NCBI RefSeq assembly: GCF_003425985.1
Contig: NZ_CP022985.1
Location: forward strand, 3,208,001-3,272,000
Source: Mariniflexile sp. TRM1-10
GTDB taxonomy: Bacteria > Bacteroidota > Bacteroidia > Flavobacteriales > Flavobacteriaceae
Direction: 5' to 3'
DNA: 64,000 nucleotides
Shown: in pieces, positions 45,060-53,486 of the stretch
How the letters are laid out: each line of letters opens with the position of its first letter
How positions within the stretch are numbered: the first letter of the stretch is position 1
Made by a program: the position numbers and the translations under genes
The notes under the pieces: generated by a model
What the model was told of the DNA's origin: nothing
The model's input: the letters and a program-made list of their open reading frames with translations, nothing else
The model's database searches: none

Positions 45060-48000
45060 ATGATGCAGATAGCAGCTTATAACCCCAAGCATAAAATTAG
45101 AATTGTAACAGCGGCATCTTTATTTGATGGACACGATGCATCCATAAATATTATGCGTCGTATTATTCAGGCGACAGGTGTGGAAGTGATTCATTTAGGG
45201 CATGATAGAAGCGTGGAGGAAGTGGTAAATACGGCCATTCAAGAGGATGTTAATGCTATTTGCTTAACCTCATATCAAGGCGGACACATGGAGTATTTTA
45301 AATACATGTTTGATTTGTTAAAGGAAAAGGGTGCAGAGCATATAAAAATTTTTGGTGGTGGTGGTGGTGTTATCTTGCCTTCCGAGATTAAAGAGCTAAT
45401 GGCATATGGCATAGCTCGAATTTATTCACCAGATGATGGTCGTGAGTTGGGCTTACAAGGTATGATTAACGATTTGGTGAAGCAATCGGATAGTGCTATC
45501 CCATCCCTAATCCTTCCCAAAGGGAAAGGAATGGAAACATCTTTAAAAAATAAAGAGGTCAATACCATTGCGAGATTAATCAGTTTAGCTGAAAATAGAC
45601 ATCAAGAGTTTACGGAAATTTTTAAACCAACAGGTTCCTCTTCTTCGGAGAAGTTAGGTGGAGTCGTATTAGGAATAACCGGAACTGGAGGTGCAGGAAA
45701 ATCTAGTTTGGTAGATGAATTGGTAAGACGATTTTTAGTTGATTTCCCTGAAAAAACGGTTGGAATTGTTTCGGTAGACCCTTCAAAACGAAAAACAGGT
45801 GGAGCGCTTTTAGGCGATAGGATTCGTATGAATGCCATAAACCATCCACGCGTTTATATGCGTAGTTTGGCGACACGTCAATCTAATTTGGCTTTGTCAA
45901 AATATGTACATGAGGCTATTGAAGTACTGAAAGCTGCCGAATATGATTTAATTGTTTTAGAAACTTCTGGAATTGGACAATCGGATACCGAAATCATAGA
46001 GCATAGCGATGTGTCATTATATGTTATGACGCCAGAATTTGGTGCTGCAACTCAGTTGGAAAAAATTGATATGCTTGATTTTGCCGATTTAGTAGCTATA
46101 AATAAATTTGATAAGCGCGGAGCTTTAGATGCGTTGCGTGATGTGAAAAAACAGTACATGCGTAATCACAATCTTTGGGATGTGCCTCAAGAACAGTTAC
46201 CGGTTTTTGGTACGATTGCTTCGCAATTTAACGACCCAGGAATGAATACGCTTTACAAAGCGGTTATGGATAAGTTGGTTGAAAAAACGTCGGCAGATTT
46301 ACAGTCAACCTTCACCATTTCAAATGAAATGAGTGAAAAGATTTTTGTTATTCCCCCGTCAAGAACGCGTTATTTATCTGAAATCGCCGAGAACAATCGG
46401 GCGTATGATGCTAAAGCAAACGAACAAGTTGAAGTCGCACAAAGGCTTTACGGTATTTATAAAACTATTTGTTCAGTAGTCAATGTCCCGTCGAGCGCAG
46501 TCGAGACGTCTTTCTTAGATAAATTGGGTTTAAATTATGATGGGGTTCTGAAACAAGTTCAGGATGACAATGATAAAAACTTTTTAGCTCTATTGTTTAA
46601 GGAATTCAACCGAGTAAAACTAAATCTCGATCCCTATAATTGGGAAATTATCATTGGTTGGGATGAAAAAGTAAATACATATAAGCAACCTGTTTACACA
46701 TTTAAAGTTCGTGAAAGAGACATAAAAATAGACACCCATTCAGAGTCGCTTTCGCATTTACAAATCCCCAAAGTAGCCTTACCTAAATATCAAGCTTGGG
46801 GCGATATTTTAAAATGGGTATTGCAAGAAAATGTACCAGGAGCGTTCCCATATACTTCAGGTTTATATTCTTTTAAAAGAATGGGAGAGGACCCTGCGCG
46901 CATGTTTGCAGGCGAAGGGAGTCCAGAGCGTACCAATAAGCGTTTTCATTATGTAAGTGCGGGTTTGCCAGCAAAACGTTTGTCTACCGCTTTTGATAGT
47001 GTGACGCTTTATGGAAGTGACCCCGATTTACGTCCCGATATCTATGGAAAAATAGGTAACGCCGGGGTAAGTATTTGTTGTTTGGATGATGCTAAGAAAT
47101 TGTATTCTGGTTTTAATTTGTTTGATGCCATGACGTCGGTTAGTATGACTATTAATGGGCCTGCTCCGATGCTTTTAGGGTATTTTATGAATGCAGCCAT
47201 AGATCAGCAATGTGAAATTTACATCAGTGAAAATGGACTGGAAGCAGAGGTTGAAACCAAAATAGCGAAACTTTATAAAGGTAAGGTACGCCCTAAATAT
47301 CATGGTGAATTGCCCTCAGGAAATAATGGTTTGGGCTTGATGCTTTTAGGAGTTACAGGAGATCAAGTGTTGCCAAAAGAGGTTTACGAAAATATAAAAA
47401 CAAAAACGATTACGCAAGTTCGCGGTACAGTGCAAGCCGACATTTTAAAAGAAGACCAAGCTCAAAATACCTGTATTTTCTCCACGGAGTTTGCACTGCG
47501 CTTAATGGGCGATGTGCAGGAGTATTTTATTGAAAACAATGTTCGTAATTTCTATTCGGTGTCTATTTCTGGGTACCACATTGCCGAAGCGGGTGCCAAC
47601 CCTATTACACAATTGGCTTTAACCTTATCTAATGGTTTCACTTACGTGGAATATTATTTAAGTCGTGGCATGGATATTAATAAATTTGGACCCAATTTAT
47701 CGTTCTTTTTCTCGAATGGCATCGATCCCGAATATGCTGTAATAGGTCGTGTAGCCCGAAAAATTTGGGCTAAAGCCATGAAGCTTAAGTATGGTGCTAA
47801 CGAACGTGCTCAAATGCTTAAATACCATATTCAAACCTCTGGTAGAAGTTTACATGCACAGGAAATCGATTTTAACGATATTCGCACTACGCTACAAGCT
47901 TTGTATGCCATATATGATAATTGTAACTCGCTACATACCAATGCGTATGACGAAGCCATTACCACACCAACCGAAGAATCGGTACGTCGAGCAATGGCTA

Positions 48001-48515
48001 TTCAGCTAATAATAAATAAAGAATTAGGATTAGCAAAAAACGAAAACCCCATTCAAGGCTCGTTTATTATTGAGGAATTAACCGATTTGGTAGAAGAAGC
48101 CGTTCTTTTGGAATTCGATAGAATTACCGAACGCGGCGGTGTTTTGGGTGCTATGGAAACCATGTACCAACGCAGTAAAATACAAGAAGAAAGCTTGTAT
48201 TATGAAACATTGAAACACAACGGTGCGTTTCCAATAATTGGCGTGAATACCTTTTTAAGTAGTAAAGGATCACCAACGATTTTACCTGTGGAAGTTATTC
48301 GTGCTACCGAAGAAGAAAAGCAATTTCAAATAAAAACATTAGAAAACCTTCACCGTGCTCATGATACTGAGGCTCTTTTAAAAGACCTTCAGCAAAAAGC
48401 AATTCATAACGAAAATATTTTTGAAGCTTTAATGGAAGTTTGTAAAGTATGCTCATTAGGACAAATCACAAATGCTTTATTTGAAGTGGGTGGGCAGTAT
48501 AGAAGGAATATGTAA
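45060..48515 (+). CDS. icmF: Fused isobutyryl-CoA/methylmalonyl-CoA mutase (IcmF type)
   Basis: This 1151-residue protein has the three-part IcmF order. The first is an N-terminal B12-binding domain (about 10-145, base-off motif [11 protein letters not shown]). The second is a G-protein chaperone (about 210-420, P-loop [43 protein letters not shown] and [13 protein letters not shown]). The third is the catalytic TIM-barrel mutase (about 560-1150, with [29 protein letters not shown]-like PITQL). It interconverts isobutyryl- and n-butyryl-CoA or related acyl-CoAs using adenosylcobalamin. It is longer than usual (about 1,070-1,100). Repeat-derived insertions at about residues 147-163 and 476-506, both in linkers between domains, account for the excess. 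Confidence 0.92.
45511..45530 (+). repeat. Palindromic repeat inserted in frame in icmF (linker 1)
   Basis: TCCTTCCCAAAGGGAAAGGA is a palindrome inside the coding frame, read as LILPKGKG. The core TTCCCAAAGGGAAAG recurs after prfA at 41826-41846. It falls between the B12 and G-protein domains, where a linker can tolerate extra residues. Confidence 0.7.
46486..46569 (+). repeat. Two palindromic repeats inserted in frame in icmF (linker 2)
   Basis: TCGAGCGCAGTCGAGA at about 46491-46506 belongs to the family seen at 24131-24143 and 60446-60459. CTGAAACAAGTTCAGGATGAC at 46549-46569 (core CTGAA-ACAAG-TTCAG) is a repeat very common in flavobacterial intergenic regions. They are read as SSAVETS and LKQVQDD, between the G-protein and mutase domains. 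Confidence 0.75.
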
Positions 48516-48816: not shown

Positions 48817-49356
48817 ATGCAAACCCAAGACATTTGGAACACCTATTCAAACGATATCAAACACTTTATATTAAGTAAGGTGAAAGATGTGGTTGTTACA
48901 GACGATTTGCTTCAGGAAACCTTTATAAAAGTACACACCAAGCTTGATACTTTAAAAGATAGTAATAAATTAAAGTCGTGGTTGTTTGCAATTGCTAGAT
49001 ATACGGTTCTAGATTATTTCAGAAATAATAATATAACTTACGAAATGTCTGAAGCAGATATGGTTTTTGACGACCAAAAGTTAGAGCATACTAAAGAAGA
49101 CTGTTTAAAAGGTATTATTAAAAGCTTGCCCAAGAAATATAGAGATCCTTTGTTTTTATCTGATATTAAAGGAATAAAACAAGCTCAAATATCAGAACAG
49201 TTGCATTTGCCGTTACCTACCATAAAGTCCCAAATACAGCGCGGTAGAAAATTAATCGCGCAAGGCTTTATAGTTTGCTGCGATTTTAAAGTGAATGATG
49301 CAGGCTATCTAGTTGGAGAGATTAAAGAAAAAGAAGACTGTAAAATGTGCCATTAA
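48817..49356 (+). CDS. sigZ: RNA polymerase sigma factor SigZ-like (ECF) with Cys-rich tail
   Basis: This 179-residue ECF-type sigma factor has region 2 at VTDDLLQETFIKVHTKLDTL...SWLFAIARYTVLDYFRN (about 27-75). Region 4 is GIIKSLPKKYRDPLFLSDIKGIKQAQISEQLHLPLPTIKSQIQRGRKLI (about 104-150, shown in part). The C-terminus carries VCCDFKVNDAGYLVGEIKEK and CKMCH, four cysteines and a final His. This motif is typical of SigZ-like proteins and suggests metal or redox sensing. No anti-sigma factor gene lies nearby. The Cys-rich ORF and attenuator upstream reinforce the idea of thiol or metal responsiveness; this is inference. Confidence 0.9.
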   Translation: MQTQDIWNTYSNDIKHFILSKVKDVVVTDDLLQETFIKVHTKLDTLKDSNKLKSWLFAIARYTVLDYFRNNNITYEMSEADMVFDDQKLEHTKEDCLKGIIKSLPKKYRDPLFLSDIKGIKQAQISEQLHLPLPTIKSQIQRGRKLIAQGFIVCCDFKVNDAGYLVGEIKEKEDCKMCH

Positions 49357-50053: not shown

Positions 50054-50449
50054 TTACAAAGTTAACATCCAACTGCGTTGCAATTGTTTAAACTTTTTTA
50101 ATTCGTTACGTAAAATAGGCAAGAAGTCTTTTCCGTTACTGTTAGAATGTTCTAAGCGATAGGAATTTTTATAAAGCATATTTGTAAGACGTCTTAAAGA
50201 TGCAATATGTTTATGCTTTCTATCTGTATAGCGTTCCATTTCGGCATTAACAATTTCTGGAGCTAATGAAACCGATTGTTGAACGATGTCACCCGAAAAA
50301 TAAATGTTAGTATCCTCTGTACCATCACTTTTTAAAGCAGACAAATCATGATTTAAATACATAGAAATACTTTGGGATAAGGTAAATATCTCAATAGCTT
50401 TTTTATATATCGGTAATTCCGATAGATTTGATGGGGTATTAGATAGCAT
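50054..50449 (-). CDS. Four-helix-bundle-like protein of unknown function
   Basis: ATG 50449 gives 131 residues; a TTG nine codons upstream is less likely. The protein is helical: LPIYKKAIEIFTLSQSISMY, then VQQSVSLAPEIVNAEMERY and HIASLRRLTNMLYKNSYRLE. The LPIYKKAIEIF...SQSI opening resembles the four-helix-bundle (S23-type) proteins of Bacteroidota, but the rest diverges. No catalytic residues are evident. It is convergent with the 46-residue ORF and divergent from the Lrp regulator gene. Confidence 0.65.
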   Translation of the reverse strand: MLSNTPSNLSELPIYKKAIEIFTLSQSISMYLNHDLSALKSDGTEDTNIYFSGDIVQQSVSLAPEIVNAEMERYTDRKHKHIASLRRLTNMLYKNSYRLEHSNSNGKDFLPILRNELKKFKQLQRSWMLTL

Positions 50450-50525
50450 ATTTTTTTTTCTAAGCAACTTTATCAAAATTACTCACAAGAATTAACAAAC
50501 AGCTTTTCATTTTAAAGTAAAAATG

Positions 50526-50572: not shown

Positions 50573-51016
50573 ATGAATTTAGATAATCTTAACTGGAAGA
50601 TTTTGAGGTGTTTGCAGGAAAACGCGCGACAATCCAATGCCGAAATTGGTAGGCAAGTGGGGATTAGCTCACCAGCGGTTTCAGAGCGTATAAAAAGAAT
50701 GGAAGATGCAGGTATTATATTAGGTTATAAAACCGTGGTGTCACCATTAGATATGGGATATCAGCTAAAAGCCATTATAACTTTACATGCGTTTATTGGT
50801 AAGTTGAAACCTTTTTTAGAGAAAGTTAAAACCTTCGACGAAGTTTTAAACTGCTACAGAATTACCGGTAACGAAAATATAGTCATGGAAGTGCTTTTAA
50901 AAAACCAAAAGCACTTGGAAACCTTTATAGATCAGCTTATTATTTATGGTGAAACCAAGACACAAATAGTACTATCTCATGTAACACGCTACAAAGAAGT
51001 GAAGCCTGCTAAATAG
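50573..51016 (+). CDS. Lrp/AsnC-family transcriptional regulator
   Basis: This 147-residue protein has an N-terminal helix-turn-helix (MNLDNLNWKILRCLQENARQ...AEIGRQVGISSPAVSERIKRMEDAGIILGYK; about 1-50). A C-terminal RAM/ACT-like effector domain (LKAIITLHAFIGKLKPFLEK and NCYRITGNENIVMEVLLKN) follows. These regulators bind amino acids or related ligands and form octamers. The neighbours are a convergent VOC/MFS operon, which may be a target, but nothing in the sequence proves it. Confidence 0.93.
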   Translation: MNLDNLNWKILRCLQENARQSNAEIGRQVGISSPAVSERIKRMEDAGIILGYKTVVSPLDMGYQLKAIITLHAFIGKLKPFLEKVKTFDEVLNCYRITGNENIVMEVLLKNQKHLETFIDQLIIYGETKTQIVLSHVTRYKEVKPAK

Positions 51017-51027
51017 GTTTTAATATG

Positions 51028-51405
51028 CTATTTTACGCGCCAAGGCGGATTTTTTCTGTTGTTTCCAGCATGATAGATTATAATTCTGTTGCCATCTAAA
51101 TCATTTAAATGTGCTTCCCGCCAAAGCCAAGGTTTGTCTTCTGGCTCGCTTAAAAAAATGATTCCTTTTTGTTTTAAAAGTAAAATAGTTTCATCAATAT
51201 TTTCATTTTCAAAATAAATCGATATGCCAACACCCCTTGGTAGTTCGTCTACTTTATGAATAGATAATGTACTATCCCCATCCGGGCATTCAAACCTTAC
51301 ATACCTTGGAAGTGCATTTACAATGAGATGCAGTCCCAAAATTTTGTAAAATGTTACAGCCTTTTCAACATCTAAAGAAGGAATGGTTATTTGGTTTAAA
51401 TTCAT
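51028..51405 (-). CDS. VOC-family (glyoxalase/bleomycin-resistance-like) protein
   Basis: This 125-residue protein has a vicinal-oxygen-chelate fold. MNLNQITIPSLDVEKAVTFYK opens it, with LGLHLIVNALPRYVRFECPDGDSTLSIH next, and it ends with HLNDLDGNRIIIYHAG, where the Glu/His metal ligand usually lies. Members chelate metals and act on or bind glyoxals, fosfomycin or bleomycin. The gene overlaps the MFS stop codon by one base (TAATG), so it is coupled to the transporter. That pairing fits a detoxification or drug-resistance operon. Confidence 0.87.
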   Translation of the reverse strand: MNLNQITIPSLDVEKAVTFYKILGLHLIVNALPRYVRFECPDGDSTLSIHKVDELPRGVGISIYFENENIDETILLLKQKGIIFLSEPEDKPWLWREAHLNDLDGNRIIIYHAGNNRKNPPWRVK

Positions 51406-52613
51406 TATAGCAATCGTTTTAAGTTTAAATTTCGGTTTAGGACAAATAAAATGATGGCGCTAATAAGTGCAATTATAGATACTATATACCAGGTATTATC
51501 AAACCCAAGGGCAGCGGTCATTTGCAAACCAGCGTTATGACCAAAAATATGTGCAATTGAAAACGATATGGAATACAGTGCCATATATTCCCCTTGATTT
51601 CCTTTTTTAGCTCTTTCAACCGCAAAGGCATTAGAGAACGGGAAAGCAATCATTTCGCCTATGGTCATTAAAAGCATGCCAACAACTAAAACTCCAGACC
51701 AAGTGGTAAAATTTAATATAAGCAAACTTAAACCCGTTAAAATAGCACCAAAAAACATCAATCCTAGTTTTGTGTAGGTAGTATTTTCCAACCACTTGAT
51801 TAAAGGCATTTCAAATATGAAAATAAGAAAGCCGTTTAGCCCTAAAATAAGCCCAATTTGAAGTTCACTTAGTGTATGAACATCTTTATAGTAAATAGTT
51901 ATGGTTGAAAAATATTGTAAGAACACTATCCCAAATAATGCCATGGCTACAAGGAAAATCATAAACGCATAATCGCCATATGCCGAAGCGGGATTATTAT
52001 TTTCAATAACATCCAAAACTTTTGCTTTTTTAGGGTGCAATACTTTGATCATCAAAAAGGTAGCAATAATACATGTAATGCCGTCAACCCAAAACAAACC
52101 AGCATACCCAAGTCCTGTAATAATGAGTCCGCCAATGGCAGGCCCTGCCGAAAACCCTAAGTTTATAGCTAAGCGTATAAGTGTTAGCGATCGTATTTTG
52201 TTTTCGGGTTTGCTATAAGCGTTTAGCGCCACAAACATAGCAGGTCTAAAAGCATCAGCAACAAGCATGACTATAAAAATACCAATACAAATAGATGCAA
52301 ACGTATTTAAGTATTGCAAAGCGATAAATAAAACACCAGTCGATAGTAGGCTTCTAACCATTACTTTATAATATCCAATTTTATCGGTTAATTTACCTCC
52401 AATCCAAGAACCAGCTACCGAACCTAATCCGAAAGCACTCATAACCCAACCTACGTGGCTTACCGTAAAATGCAGGTCTTCCTTTAGGTATAATGATAAA
52501 AATGGAATCACCATAGTGCCCGCCCTATTTATAAGTGTTATGAGAGCAAGCCACCATATTTCTTCCGATAAGCCTCTAAAGGTGTTTAAATAGTTATTAA
52601 AAAGTGTTTTCAT
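51405..52613 (-). CDS. MFS transporter, drug:H+ antiporter-like
   Basis: This 402-residue protein has 12 predicted helices. The MFS loop motif between TM2 and TM3 is GSWIGGKLTDKIGYYK near 69 (G-x-x-x-D-x-x-G-x-x), and the TM5 region is LAINLGFSAGPAIGGLI near 148, the antiporter motif C pattern. The proteins are close to the MdtH-type DHA1 group. The substrate is unknown. The leader upstream contains a mini-ORF, a terminator and an antiterminator arm, so the gene is probably induced by ribosome stalling. VOC follows in the same operon. Confidence 0.9.
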   Translation of the reverse strand: MKTLFNNYLNTFRGLSEEIWWLALITLINRAGTMVIPFLSLYLKEDLHFTVSHVGWVMSAFGLGSVAGSWIGGKLTDKIGYYKVMVRSLLSTGVLFIALQYLNTFASICIGIFIVMLVADAFRPAMFVALNAYSKPENKIRSLTLIRLAINLGFSAGPAIGGLIITGLGYAGLFWVDGITCIIATFLMIKVLHPKKAKVLDVIENNNPASAYGDYAFMIFLVAMALFGIVFLQYFSTITIYYKDVHTLSELQIGLILGLNGFLIFIFEMPLIKWLENTTYTKLGLMFFGAILTGLSLLILNFTTWSGVLVVGMLLMTIGEMIAFPFSNAFAVERAKKGNQGEYMALYSISFSIAHIFGHNAGLQMTAALGFDNTWYIVSIIALISAIILFVLNRNLNLKRLL

Positions 52614-52650: not shown

Positions 52651-52665
52651 AGTCGATTATCGACT
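52651..52665. promoter_or_regulatory. Palindrome AGTCGA-TTA-TCGACT upstream of the MFS gene
   Basis: A perfect 6-bp inverted repeat with 3-base spacer lies 38 bases from the MFS start, just past the terminator T-run. It could be a protein operator or an extra RNA hairpin in the leader. Confidence 0.5.
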
Positions 52666-52666
52666 A

Positions 52667-52700
52667 AAAATAAAAAGTCCGACTGTGAAGTCGGACTTTT
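52667..52700 (-). terminator. Leader terminator (attenuator) of the MFS operon
   Basis: On the minus strand AAAAGTCCGACT (52700-52689) pairs with AGTCGGACTTTTT (from 52684) around TCAC, followed by ATTTTT. This is a canonical intrinsic terminator lying between the leader ORF and the MFS start codon. Confidence 0.85.
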
Positions 52701-52726
52701 ACATATTGTAATAATTTATAATCGTA

Positions 52727-52807
52727 TCACCTAAATATATAAAAAGCCCGACCTCTTTTACGAGAAGTAGTGAATAGCATCTTACAAATGGTGACGTTGT
52801 TACGCAT
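52727..52807 (-). CDS. 26-residue leader peptide of the MFS operon
   Basis: ATG at 52805-52807 and TGA at 52727-52729 enclose 26 codons: MRNNVTICKMLF, TTSRKRGR, AFYIFR. It is not a normal protein. The terminator begins 27 bases after its stop. Codons 19-23 (GGT CGG GCT TTT TAT, at 52739-52753) include the arm that can pair with the terminator's left side. The R-K-R and R-G-R runs are +X+ motifs of the sort known to cause macrolide-dependent ribosome stalling (ErmDL-like). Expression control by stalling is an inference; the ORF and the competing structures are in the sequence. Confidence 0.6.
   Translation of the reverse strand: MRNNVTICKMLFTTSRKRGRAFYIFR
52742..52753 (-). promoter_or_regulatory. 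Antiterminator arm inside the leader ORF
   Basis: The minus-strand sequence GTCGGGCTTTTT lies in the leader ORF and can pair over about 12 positions (one G-U) with AAAAGTCCGAC, the left arm of the terminator. The two structures are mutually exclusive, the hallmark of attenuation. Confidence 0.6.
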
Positions 52808-52826
52808 TTTTATTTTTTATGAGTTA

Positions 52827-52834
52827 CAAACTTA
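52827..52834 (-). promoter_or_regulatory. -7 box of the MFS leader transcript
   Basis: On the minus strand, TAAGTTTG fits TAnnTTTG and predicts transcription start near 52820, about a dozen bases before the leader ORF ATG. No good -33 was found. Confidence 0.4.
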
Positions 52835-52880: not shown

Positions 52881-53486
52881 ATGAAACCACTAATAGCCCT
52901 ATTGGTATTTTTAACTTTTTTTACAAGTTGTGCCCAAGAGAAAAAAATGATTAAAGGAGACACCGAGTTTCAGCGCGAACTAAACGCCGAATATAAGGAT
53001 GCCACAACATCGCCTTTAAAAGATAAAGACAGAAAGCATTTTGAAGGTTTAGATTTTTTTAAGTTCGATGCCGCTTATGTCGTTAATGCTAAGTTTGAAA
53101 GATTTCCAAATGAAAAACCTTTTGAAATGAAAACTTCAACGGAAAGACGCCCCATTTATGTAAAGTATGGTGAGCTTTCATTTGAATTAAAAGGAAAACG
53201 TCATAAGCTAAATATCTATCAAAATTTAGGATTAATTGAAAAGGAAGGTTACGAAGATTATTTATTTCTGCCTTTTTCAGATGAAACCAACGGATTGGAA
53301 AGTTATGGTGGCGGTCGTTATATAGATGCCCGAATACCTAAAGGCGATACTATGGAAATTGATTTTAATAAGGCCTACAACCCATATTGTGCTTATAACG
53401 ACAAGTATTCTTGCCCCATTGTACCACGTGAGAATTATTTAAAAACCAGAATAGAAGCAGGGGTAAAGGCTTTTGGGAAGCATTGA
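52881..53486 (+). CDS. DUF1684 family lipoprotein
   Basis: This 201-residue protein has the lipoprotein signal MKPLIALLVFLTFFTSC. DUF1684 is indicated by SPLKDKDRKHFEGLDFFKFD, then the core KLNIYQNLGLIEKEGYEDYLFLPFSDETNGLESYGGGRYID (in part) and a conserved tail IDFNKAYNPYCAYNDKYSCPIVPRENYL with paired Cys. It is a periplasm-facing lipoprotein. Its biochemical role is unknown. It stands alone, with TACTTTTG at 52855-52862 as a possible -7 box. Confidence 0.88.
   Translation: MKPLIALLVFLTFFTSCAQEKKMIKGDTEFQRELNAEYKDATTSPLKDKDRKHFEGLDFFKFDAAYVVNAKFERFPNEKPFEMKTSTERRPIYVKYGELSFELKGKRHKLNIYQNLGLIEKEGYEDYLFLPFSDETNGLESYGGGRYIDARIPKGDTMEIDFNKAYNPYCAYNDKYSCPIVPRENYLKTRIEAGVKAFGKH

Follow-up and report, generated by a model that had tools for sequence, protein, structure and literature searches.

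An MFS gene resembling those of drug exporters is, in Mariniflexile sp. TRM1-10, very probably preceded by a ribosome-mediated transcription attenuator, as judged from sequence comparison and RNA folding and leaving aside what makes the ribosome stall. Given such an attenuator, an antibiotic is a fairly probable signal, and attenuator and antibiotic signal taken together have a slightly better than even chance of being the right account. The locus lies in the window, by which we mean the whole stretch of 64,000 nucleotides analysed here, from a genome consisting of one 4.86-Mb contig. A first-pass annotation, made from the letters of the window, had proposed a leader-peptide attenuator at this place; its observation is confirmed as real and beyond chance, and its interpretation is partly supported.

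As that annotation had described, the minus strand of the window carries, in order, a promoter box, a 26-codon leader ORF, a terminator, the MFS gene and a VOC gene. The box, TAAGTTTG (52827–52834, minus strand), starts 27 nt ahead of the ORF and is named a Bacteroidota-type -7 box by a TAnnTTTG-like consensus, which we take to describe such promoters. The leader ORF (52727–52807, minus strand) runs from an ATG at 52807 to a TGA at 52729–52727 and encodes the peptide MRNNVTICKMLFTTSRKRGRAFYIFR. After a spacer of 26 nt follows the intrinsic terminator (52673–52700, minus strand), which reads AAAAGTCCGACT-TCAC-AGTCGGACTTTT from 52700 to 52673, a 12-bp stem with a TCAC loop, and then a T-rich tail. 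The antiterminator strand, GGTCGGGCTTTT (codons 19–22; 52742–52753, minus strand), pairs with the terminator left arm over 12 bp without a gap. The length of about 12 bp proposed earlier thus stands, while the letters then quoted for the strand, GTCGGGCTTTTT, lie at 52752–52741, one base off. The two alternative structures are close in energy, with -16.1 kcal/mol for the antiterminator duplex and -15.9 kcal/mol for the terminator hairpin. Two further elements, which together with the N-terminal segment of the peptide are additions to the first-pass annotation, concern the folding of the ORF on itself. In P1, codons 3–8 pair with the stop region; in the window, its 5' strand is GTCACC (codons 5–6; 52790–52795, minus strand) and its 3' strand GGTGAT, spanning the stop codon (52726–52731, minus strand). 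P2 is a small hairpin within the ORF (ACTTCT/AGAGGT; 52751–52768, minus strand) that overlaps the start of the antiterminator strand.

Orthologous loci were gathered in two sets, one from 60 relatives, 38 of which had a match at E 0.001 and gave 30 loci, and one from named genomes, which gave 80 loci; some genomes occur in both sets. Using a script with fixed rules (ATG start, 20–36 codons, ORF end 15–45 nt before the terminator arm), we found the leader layout upstream of the MFS orthologue in 91 of the 110 loci. Among the 19 loci dropped by the script, eight carry a leader by eye (L013, L033 and L105 with GTG, L086 with TTG, and L069, L079, L099 and L100 with ATG), four have leaders that appear by eye to be broken or shortened (L017, L083, L090 and L101), and in the remaining seven the leader was not found (L019, L022, L023, L026, L027, L029 and L030). 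L013 and L105, besides their GTG start, have a common other core, VSYK, and terminators of different sequence, and perhaps represent a divergent leader subtype. A TAnnTTTG-like box lies 25–30 nt ahead of the leader start in 85 of the 91 loci. Removal of four identical leaders left 87, of which the 71 with a pairing score of 15 or more were used to examine the reading frame: in 64 of them the leader stays in frame with this core of the antiterminator, and the distance from ATG to core varies mainly in steps of three (55, 58, 61 nt). Of the alternative frames, one is open in 12 and the other in 6 of the 87 leaders, frame 0 being open by selection of the leaders. The peptide itself is under weak purifying selection (pN/pS 0.51–0.81). 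An N-terminal extension was trimmed in L009 for the pN/pS estimate and for a 40-row alignment, and in L084 for the latter, which was made without L014, L028, L058 and L109. The conserved start, frame and stop argue that the leader ORF is translated.

In most leaders, ORF codons from about 18 to 22 pair with the terminator left arm, and the mean antiterminator score over the 87 leaders is 18.3, compared with 11.3 in dinucleotide-shuffled ORFs. For a permutation test, leaders were placed in 20 clusters of uneven size (49, 12, 4 and smaller) and strands were permuted between clusters 1000 times. In this test, which is not a phylogenetic one, P1 scored 15.6 against 12.6 permuted (sd 0.54) and the antiterminator 14.3 against 12.7 (sd 0.52), with 0 of 1000 permutations as good in either case. 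Two control pairings gave null results in the same test (983/1000 and 886/1000). Compensatory changes, which the first-pass annotation had proposed to look for in homologues, were counted column by column in the 48 of the 87 leaders used in alignment A2. The terminator covaries (21 two-sided cells, 0/500 shuffles) and P1 beats the shuffles by cells paired (0/500), not by score (141/500), while the antiterminator is not above shuffles column by column (score 48/500; cells paired 123/500). Its most variable pair is U-G in 22 leaders, C-G in 16 and U-A in 10, with no C-A. An initial scan of P1 against shuffles had placed 39 of the 87 leaders at p 0.1 or less; for P2, the mean z is -1.39 and 43 of 87 leaders reach this level, the hairpin being weak in the window leader taken alone (p 0.27). 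A longer antiterminator, extended by pairing between the stop region and the linker, appeared in single folds only; it was unsupported by permutation (316/2000) or by energy (mean z 0.13; 7/87 at p 0.1) and was rejected. Overall, the comparison of sequences supports the leader, its frame, P1, the antiterminator and the terminator.

Folding was then computed with a ribosome assumed to cover 13 nt back and 15 nt forward of the P-site, and P1 and the antiterminator were counted as formed at 5 bp or more. When the RNA extends to 9 nt beyond the stop codon, 80 of the 87 leaders form P1, compared with 24.7 after dinucleotide shuffling and 22.2 after codon-order shuffling. A ribosome at codons 2, 4, 6, 8, 10, 12 and 14 leaves P1 in 37, 0, 0, 0, 7, 45 and 65 leaders, respectively. 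In RNA ending at the terminator left arm, tested at even codons, the antiterminator forms in 69% of the 87 ribosome-free leaders and in 92–95% with the ribosome at codons 2–12; this falls to 79% at codon 14, 26% at codon 16 and 0% at codons 18–24, and the pairing comes back at the very end of the longer ORFs, at codon 26 (54% of 54 leaders) and codon 28 (91% of 11), which tells somewhat against the model. These predictions otherwise agree with both halves of the switch in the first-pass annotation, in which full translation would allow termination and an earlier stall would free the antiterminator. In this model, the position of the ribosome decides the leader fold, and the predicted window for a productive stall is about codons 4–10, since P1 is lost there while the antiterminator forms. 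At equilibrium, full-length RNA prefers the terminator in all 87 leaders without a ribosome and in 70 of 87 with one at codon 8, so that the switch has to work kinetically. When RNA is cut at the terminator arm and carries no ribosome, equilibrium favours the antiterminator in 60 of 87 leaders, which makes the state without translation uncertain. In the window, part of the antiterminator strand is also paired within the ribosome-free ORF fold.

From folding we infer a logic of three states. RNA polymerase would make a short leader RNA bearing the 26-codon ORF. Ribosomes translating through the ORF would cover codons 19–22, and formation of the terminator would keep the MFS-VOC operon off. An ORF free of ribosomes would fold on itself through P1 and P2 before the polymerase reaches the terminator arm, and the terminator would be left free. 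An early stall, at about codons 4–10, would cover the 5' strand of P1 and let codons 19–22 pair with the terminator left arm; with the antiterminator formed, transcription would continue into the pump gene. The agent of such a stall would be an antibiotic that targets the ribosome and is exported by the pump, and the leader peptide would sense it through its N-terminal residues.

The product of the putatively controlled gene (51405–52613, minus strand; ATG at 52613) is a 402-aa protein that matches PF07690 and is 98% identical to a Mariniflexile MFS. All seven distinct PDB sequences that it matched are NorA. Its predicted structure (mean pLDDT 85.5) has NorA as best fold match (TM 0.79), with VMAT, MdfA and LmrP within the top 50, and it contains GFSAGPAIGG, which we take to be antiporter motif C. 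By NorA-like sequence and fold, it thus resembles drug exporters. The VOC/glyoxalase-family gene (51028–51405, minus strand; 125 aa) is coupled to it, as the earlier reading held, by a stop/start overlap, TAATG, and follows the MFS gene in 52 of the 110 loci, a lower bound like the other neighbour counts given here, flank lengths differing between loci. A divergent DUF1684 gene (52881–53486, plus strand) has a same-orientation homologue in 89 of 110 loci, and its control could possibly be shared with that of the leader operon. Further along the window lie an Lrp/AsnC-type regulator (50573–51016, plus strand; homologues in 59 of 110 loci) and a 140-aa protein without a Pfam match (50054–50476, minus strand; homologues in 53 of 110 loci). 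By eye, a 179-aa protein (48817–49356, plus strand) resembles a sigma factor of RNA polymerase and adjoins a 1151-aa fused mutase-like protein (45060–48515, plus strand).

A covariance model built from the 48 leaders was searched in 299 family genomes and matched 163 of them at E 0.01, some of these matches being plain terminators; at E 1e-60, the MFS itself was detected in 174 of the 299 genomes. Among the best 111 model matches listed, 91 are followed closely by a listed MFS. Seventeen of the remaining 20 were fetched along with three weaker matches; the unfetched ones are G014, whose leader precedes the MFS of L028, and two matches on the strand opposite a listed leader. The 20 fetched regions comprise 10 with a leader and a more divergent MFS of the same family (judged by eye, two being cut by contig ends), one with a leader and no MFS, and nine with a terminator only. 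No leader was found before other gene families among the best 111 matches inspected, in which real leaders, as far as sequence tells, precede the NorA-like MFS family, bar one probable relic. The latter, L143 (G152:C4:24900-27400), has an intact-looking leader (224–358) and a terminator with no MFS after them; by eye, the ORFs that come next resemble two neighbours of the operon in the window, the 140-aa protein and the AsnC regulator, and its leader is likely a relic after loss of the pump gene. Neither a terminator, as judged by the script, nor a leader was found in L169 or in 19 loci of the large genus g147, whose MFS proteins are 48–51% identical; in this check, the ORF of L162 was masked by a filter. 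Outside the family, L021, from another family of the same order, is among the 91 leader loci, and plasmid pAT3 of Aureibacter tunicatorum (Cytophagales; L188) carries a 25-codon leader from position 510, with a 7-bp P1 by eye and a terminator at 617–643. This presence on a plasmid in another Bacteroidota order possibly reflects horizontal transfer. The script did not find a leader in the Persicobacter locus (L189).

What the leader senses was weighed against several alternatives. The first-pass annotation had taken macrolides as the signal, because the window leader contains RKR and RGR at codons 16–20, the +X+ pattern at which macrolides stall ribosomes in leaders of the ErmDL type. Such patterns occur at chance frequency, in 20 of 45 representative leaders against 19.4 expected in shuffles and in 47 of 97 leaders against 45.4 overall, and they stand on the wrong side of the switch. 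In the window, P-sites at codons 16, 17, 18 and 19 leave 4, 2, 0 and 0 of the 12 antiterminator pairs, so that a stall at 17–19 would switch the operon off; moreover, the last arginine (CGG, codon 20) lies in the antiterminator strand and is TGG (Trp) in 32 of 48 relatives. A macrolide leader of the ErmDL or Mef(E)L type was therefore rejected, and macrolide sensing at these codons is very improbable. We give slightly less credence still to a ligand-binding RNA in which the ORF is incidental: P1 and P2 do form a sizeable fold, whereas the ORF is conserved in its frame, its start codon and the place of its stop, the strands of the pairings differ between leader clusters, and no family of Rfam 15 matched the window at gathering score. 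As for an ordinary terminator behind a chance ORF, plain terminators did give weak false matches to the covariance model, as in the nine terminator-only regions fetched; the frame, permutation and shuffle tests are all contrary to this reading, and in 22 loci sampled from other families the script detected two terminator-like stems and no leader, which leaves this reading next to no probability.

Two further readings retain the attenuator and replace its signal. Small-molecule-sensing arrest peptides are established, and the nascent leader peptide and ribosome could, like TnaC or SpeFL, sense an endogenous metabolite that the MFS exports. The gene is chromosomal in many genera, and among the 50 plasmid records matched in a search none is closely related, each falling short of 60% identity and the best standing at 54% and 51%. 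The resemblance of the MFS to drug exporters and the neighbourhood of the gene, in which VOC often follows and no biosynthetic gene was seen adjoining at the locus, stand against this, and we regard it as unlikely. Limitation of an amino acid or tRNA, read at regulatory codons near 4–10, would suit the trp-like layout, and Lys and Thr each occur within residues 5–12 in 84% of the 45 representatives, with Lys-Lys in 9 of 97 leaders. Against it, no residue is invariant among the 45 representatives, adjacent identical residues occur at positions 5–12 in only 17 of 97 leaders and are of five kinds, no common codon run for one amino acid was seen in the 97 leaders, and the gene is of the exporter type rather than biosynthetic; this reading is decidedly improbable. 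The antibiotic reading would place the sensing in N-terminal residues, inside the productive window of codons 4–10. The pattern [TIVN][YC]x(0-2)[KQ], which was picked after the data had been seen, occurs at residues 4–13 in 25 of 45 representatives, compared with 5.3 in shuffles (maximum 14), and the constraint of P1 on the same codons may account for part of it; the N-terminal motif thus appears weakly conserved. A more specific proposal, tentative and somewhat short of an even chance, is that the leader of about 25 residues is a new class of drug-dependent arrest peptide, which would stall antibiotic-bound Bacteroidota ribosomes through N-terminal [TIVN]-[YC]-x(0-2)-[KQ] and so drive the terminator switch for one NorA-like pump across many Flavobacteriaceae genera, and also on the Cytophagales plasmid. 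The leader is a candidate for the antibiotic-sensing group of attenuators.

Several known leaders offer comparisons. According to the excerpted description of BmrB, ahead of bmrCD in Bacillus subtilis, a leader ORF, a terminator, an anti-terminator and a predicted anti-anti-terminator precede a multidrug exporter, leader translation is required, and lincomycin, erythromycin and chloramphenicol induce (PMC4191407). The present leader is alike in having an ORF, terminator, anti-terminator and predicted anti-anti-terminator ahead of an exporter-type gene; BmrB, compared here by its description, differs in serving an ABC transporter in Bacillota and in having its terminator inside the leader coding region (PMC4191407), compared with 26 nt after the stop in the window. 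Mef(E)L, of mef(E)/mel in Streptococcus, is likewise described, in excerpt, as leader-peptide transcription attenuation before an MFS efflux gene, with an 8-residue leader, MTASMRLR, in a 327-nt leader region on mobile elements (PMC4335068), whereas the family described here has about 25 codons, +X+ at chance level and a mostly chromosomal location. Within Bacteroidota, the tetQ leader of Bacteroides also controls a resistance gene; it is listed as translation attenuation of a ribosome-protection gene (PMC5418344), in contrast to the termination of transcription ahead of an efflux-type gene proposed here. In the same family, attenuation by leader peptides has been proposed for Flavobacterium psychrophilum, where the excerpts concern amino-acid biosynthesis operons (PMC9723704) instead of an exporter gene whose leaders have no common regulatory codon run. 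The toiL uORF of Escherichia coli is a short upstream ORF at which, as excerpted, stalling senses several classes of ribosome inhibitors, with control exerted on a toxin-antitoxin operon at the levels of translation and of Rho termination (PMC12121999), unlike the intrinsic terminator here. By analogy, the mode of action would be akin to that of BmrB and Mef(E)L, a stalled ribosome on the leader letting transcription into the exporter gene.

Among the literature matches listed, no earlier description of a leader-MFS attenuator of this kind was found, and the conserved system is apparently undescribed, as the first-pass annotation had supposed. If the antibiotic reading is true, it would apply to a phylum, Bacteroidota, for which the sources, as excerpted, mention only the attenuation of tetQ translation, leaders of amino-acid operons and short ORFs, unexplained, within long 5' UTRs of B. 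thetaiotaomicron. It would also provide a candidate new arrest peptide, a route to the substrate of the pump and a ready assay for natural compounds met by these bacteria, and it would mean that in one family many environmental bacteria sense antibiotics by the stalling of ribosomes and so control an intrinsic efflux pump.
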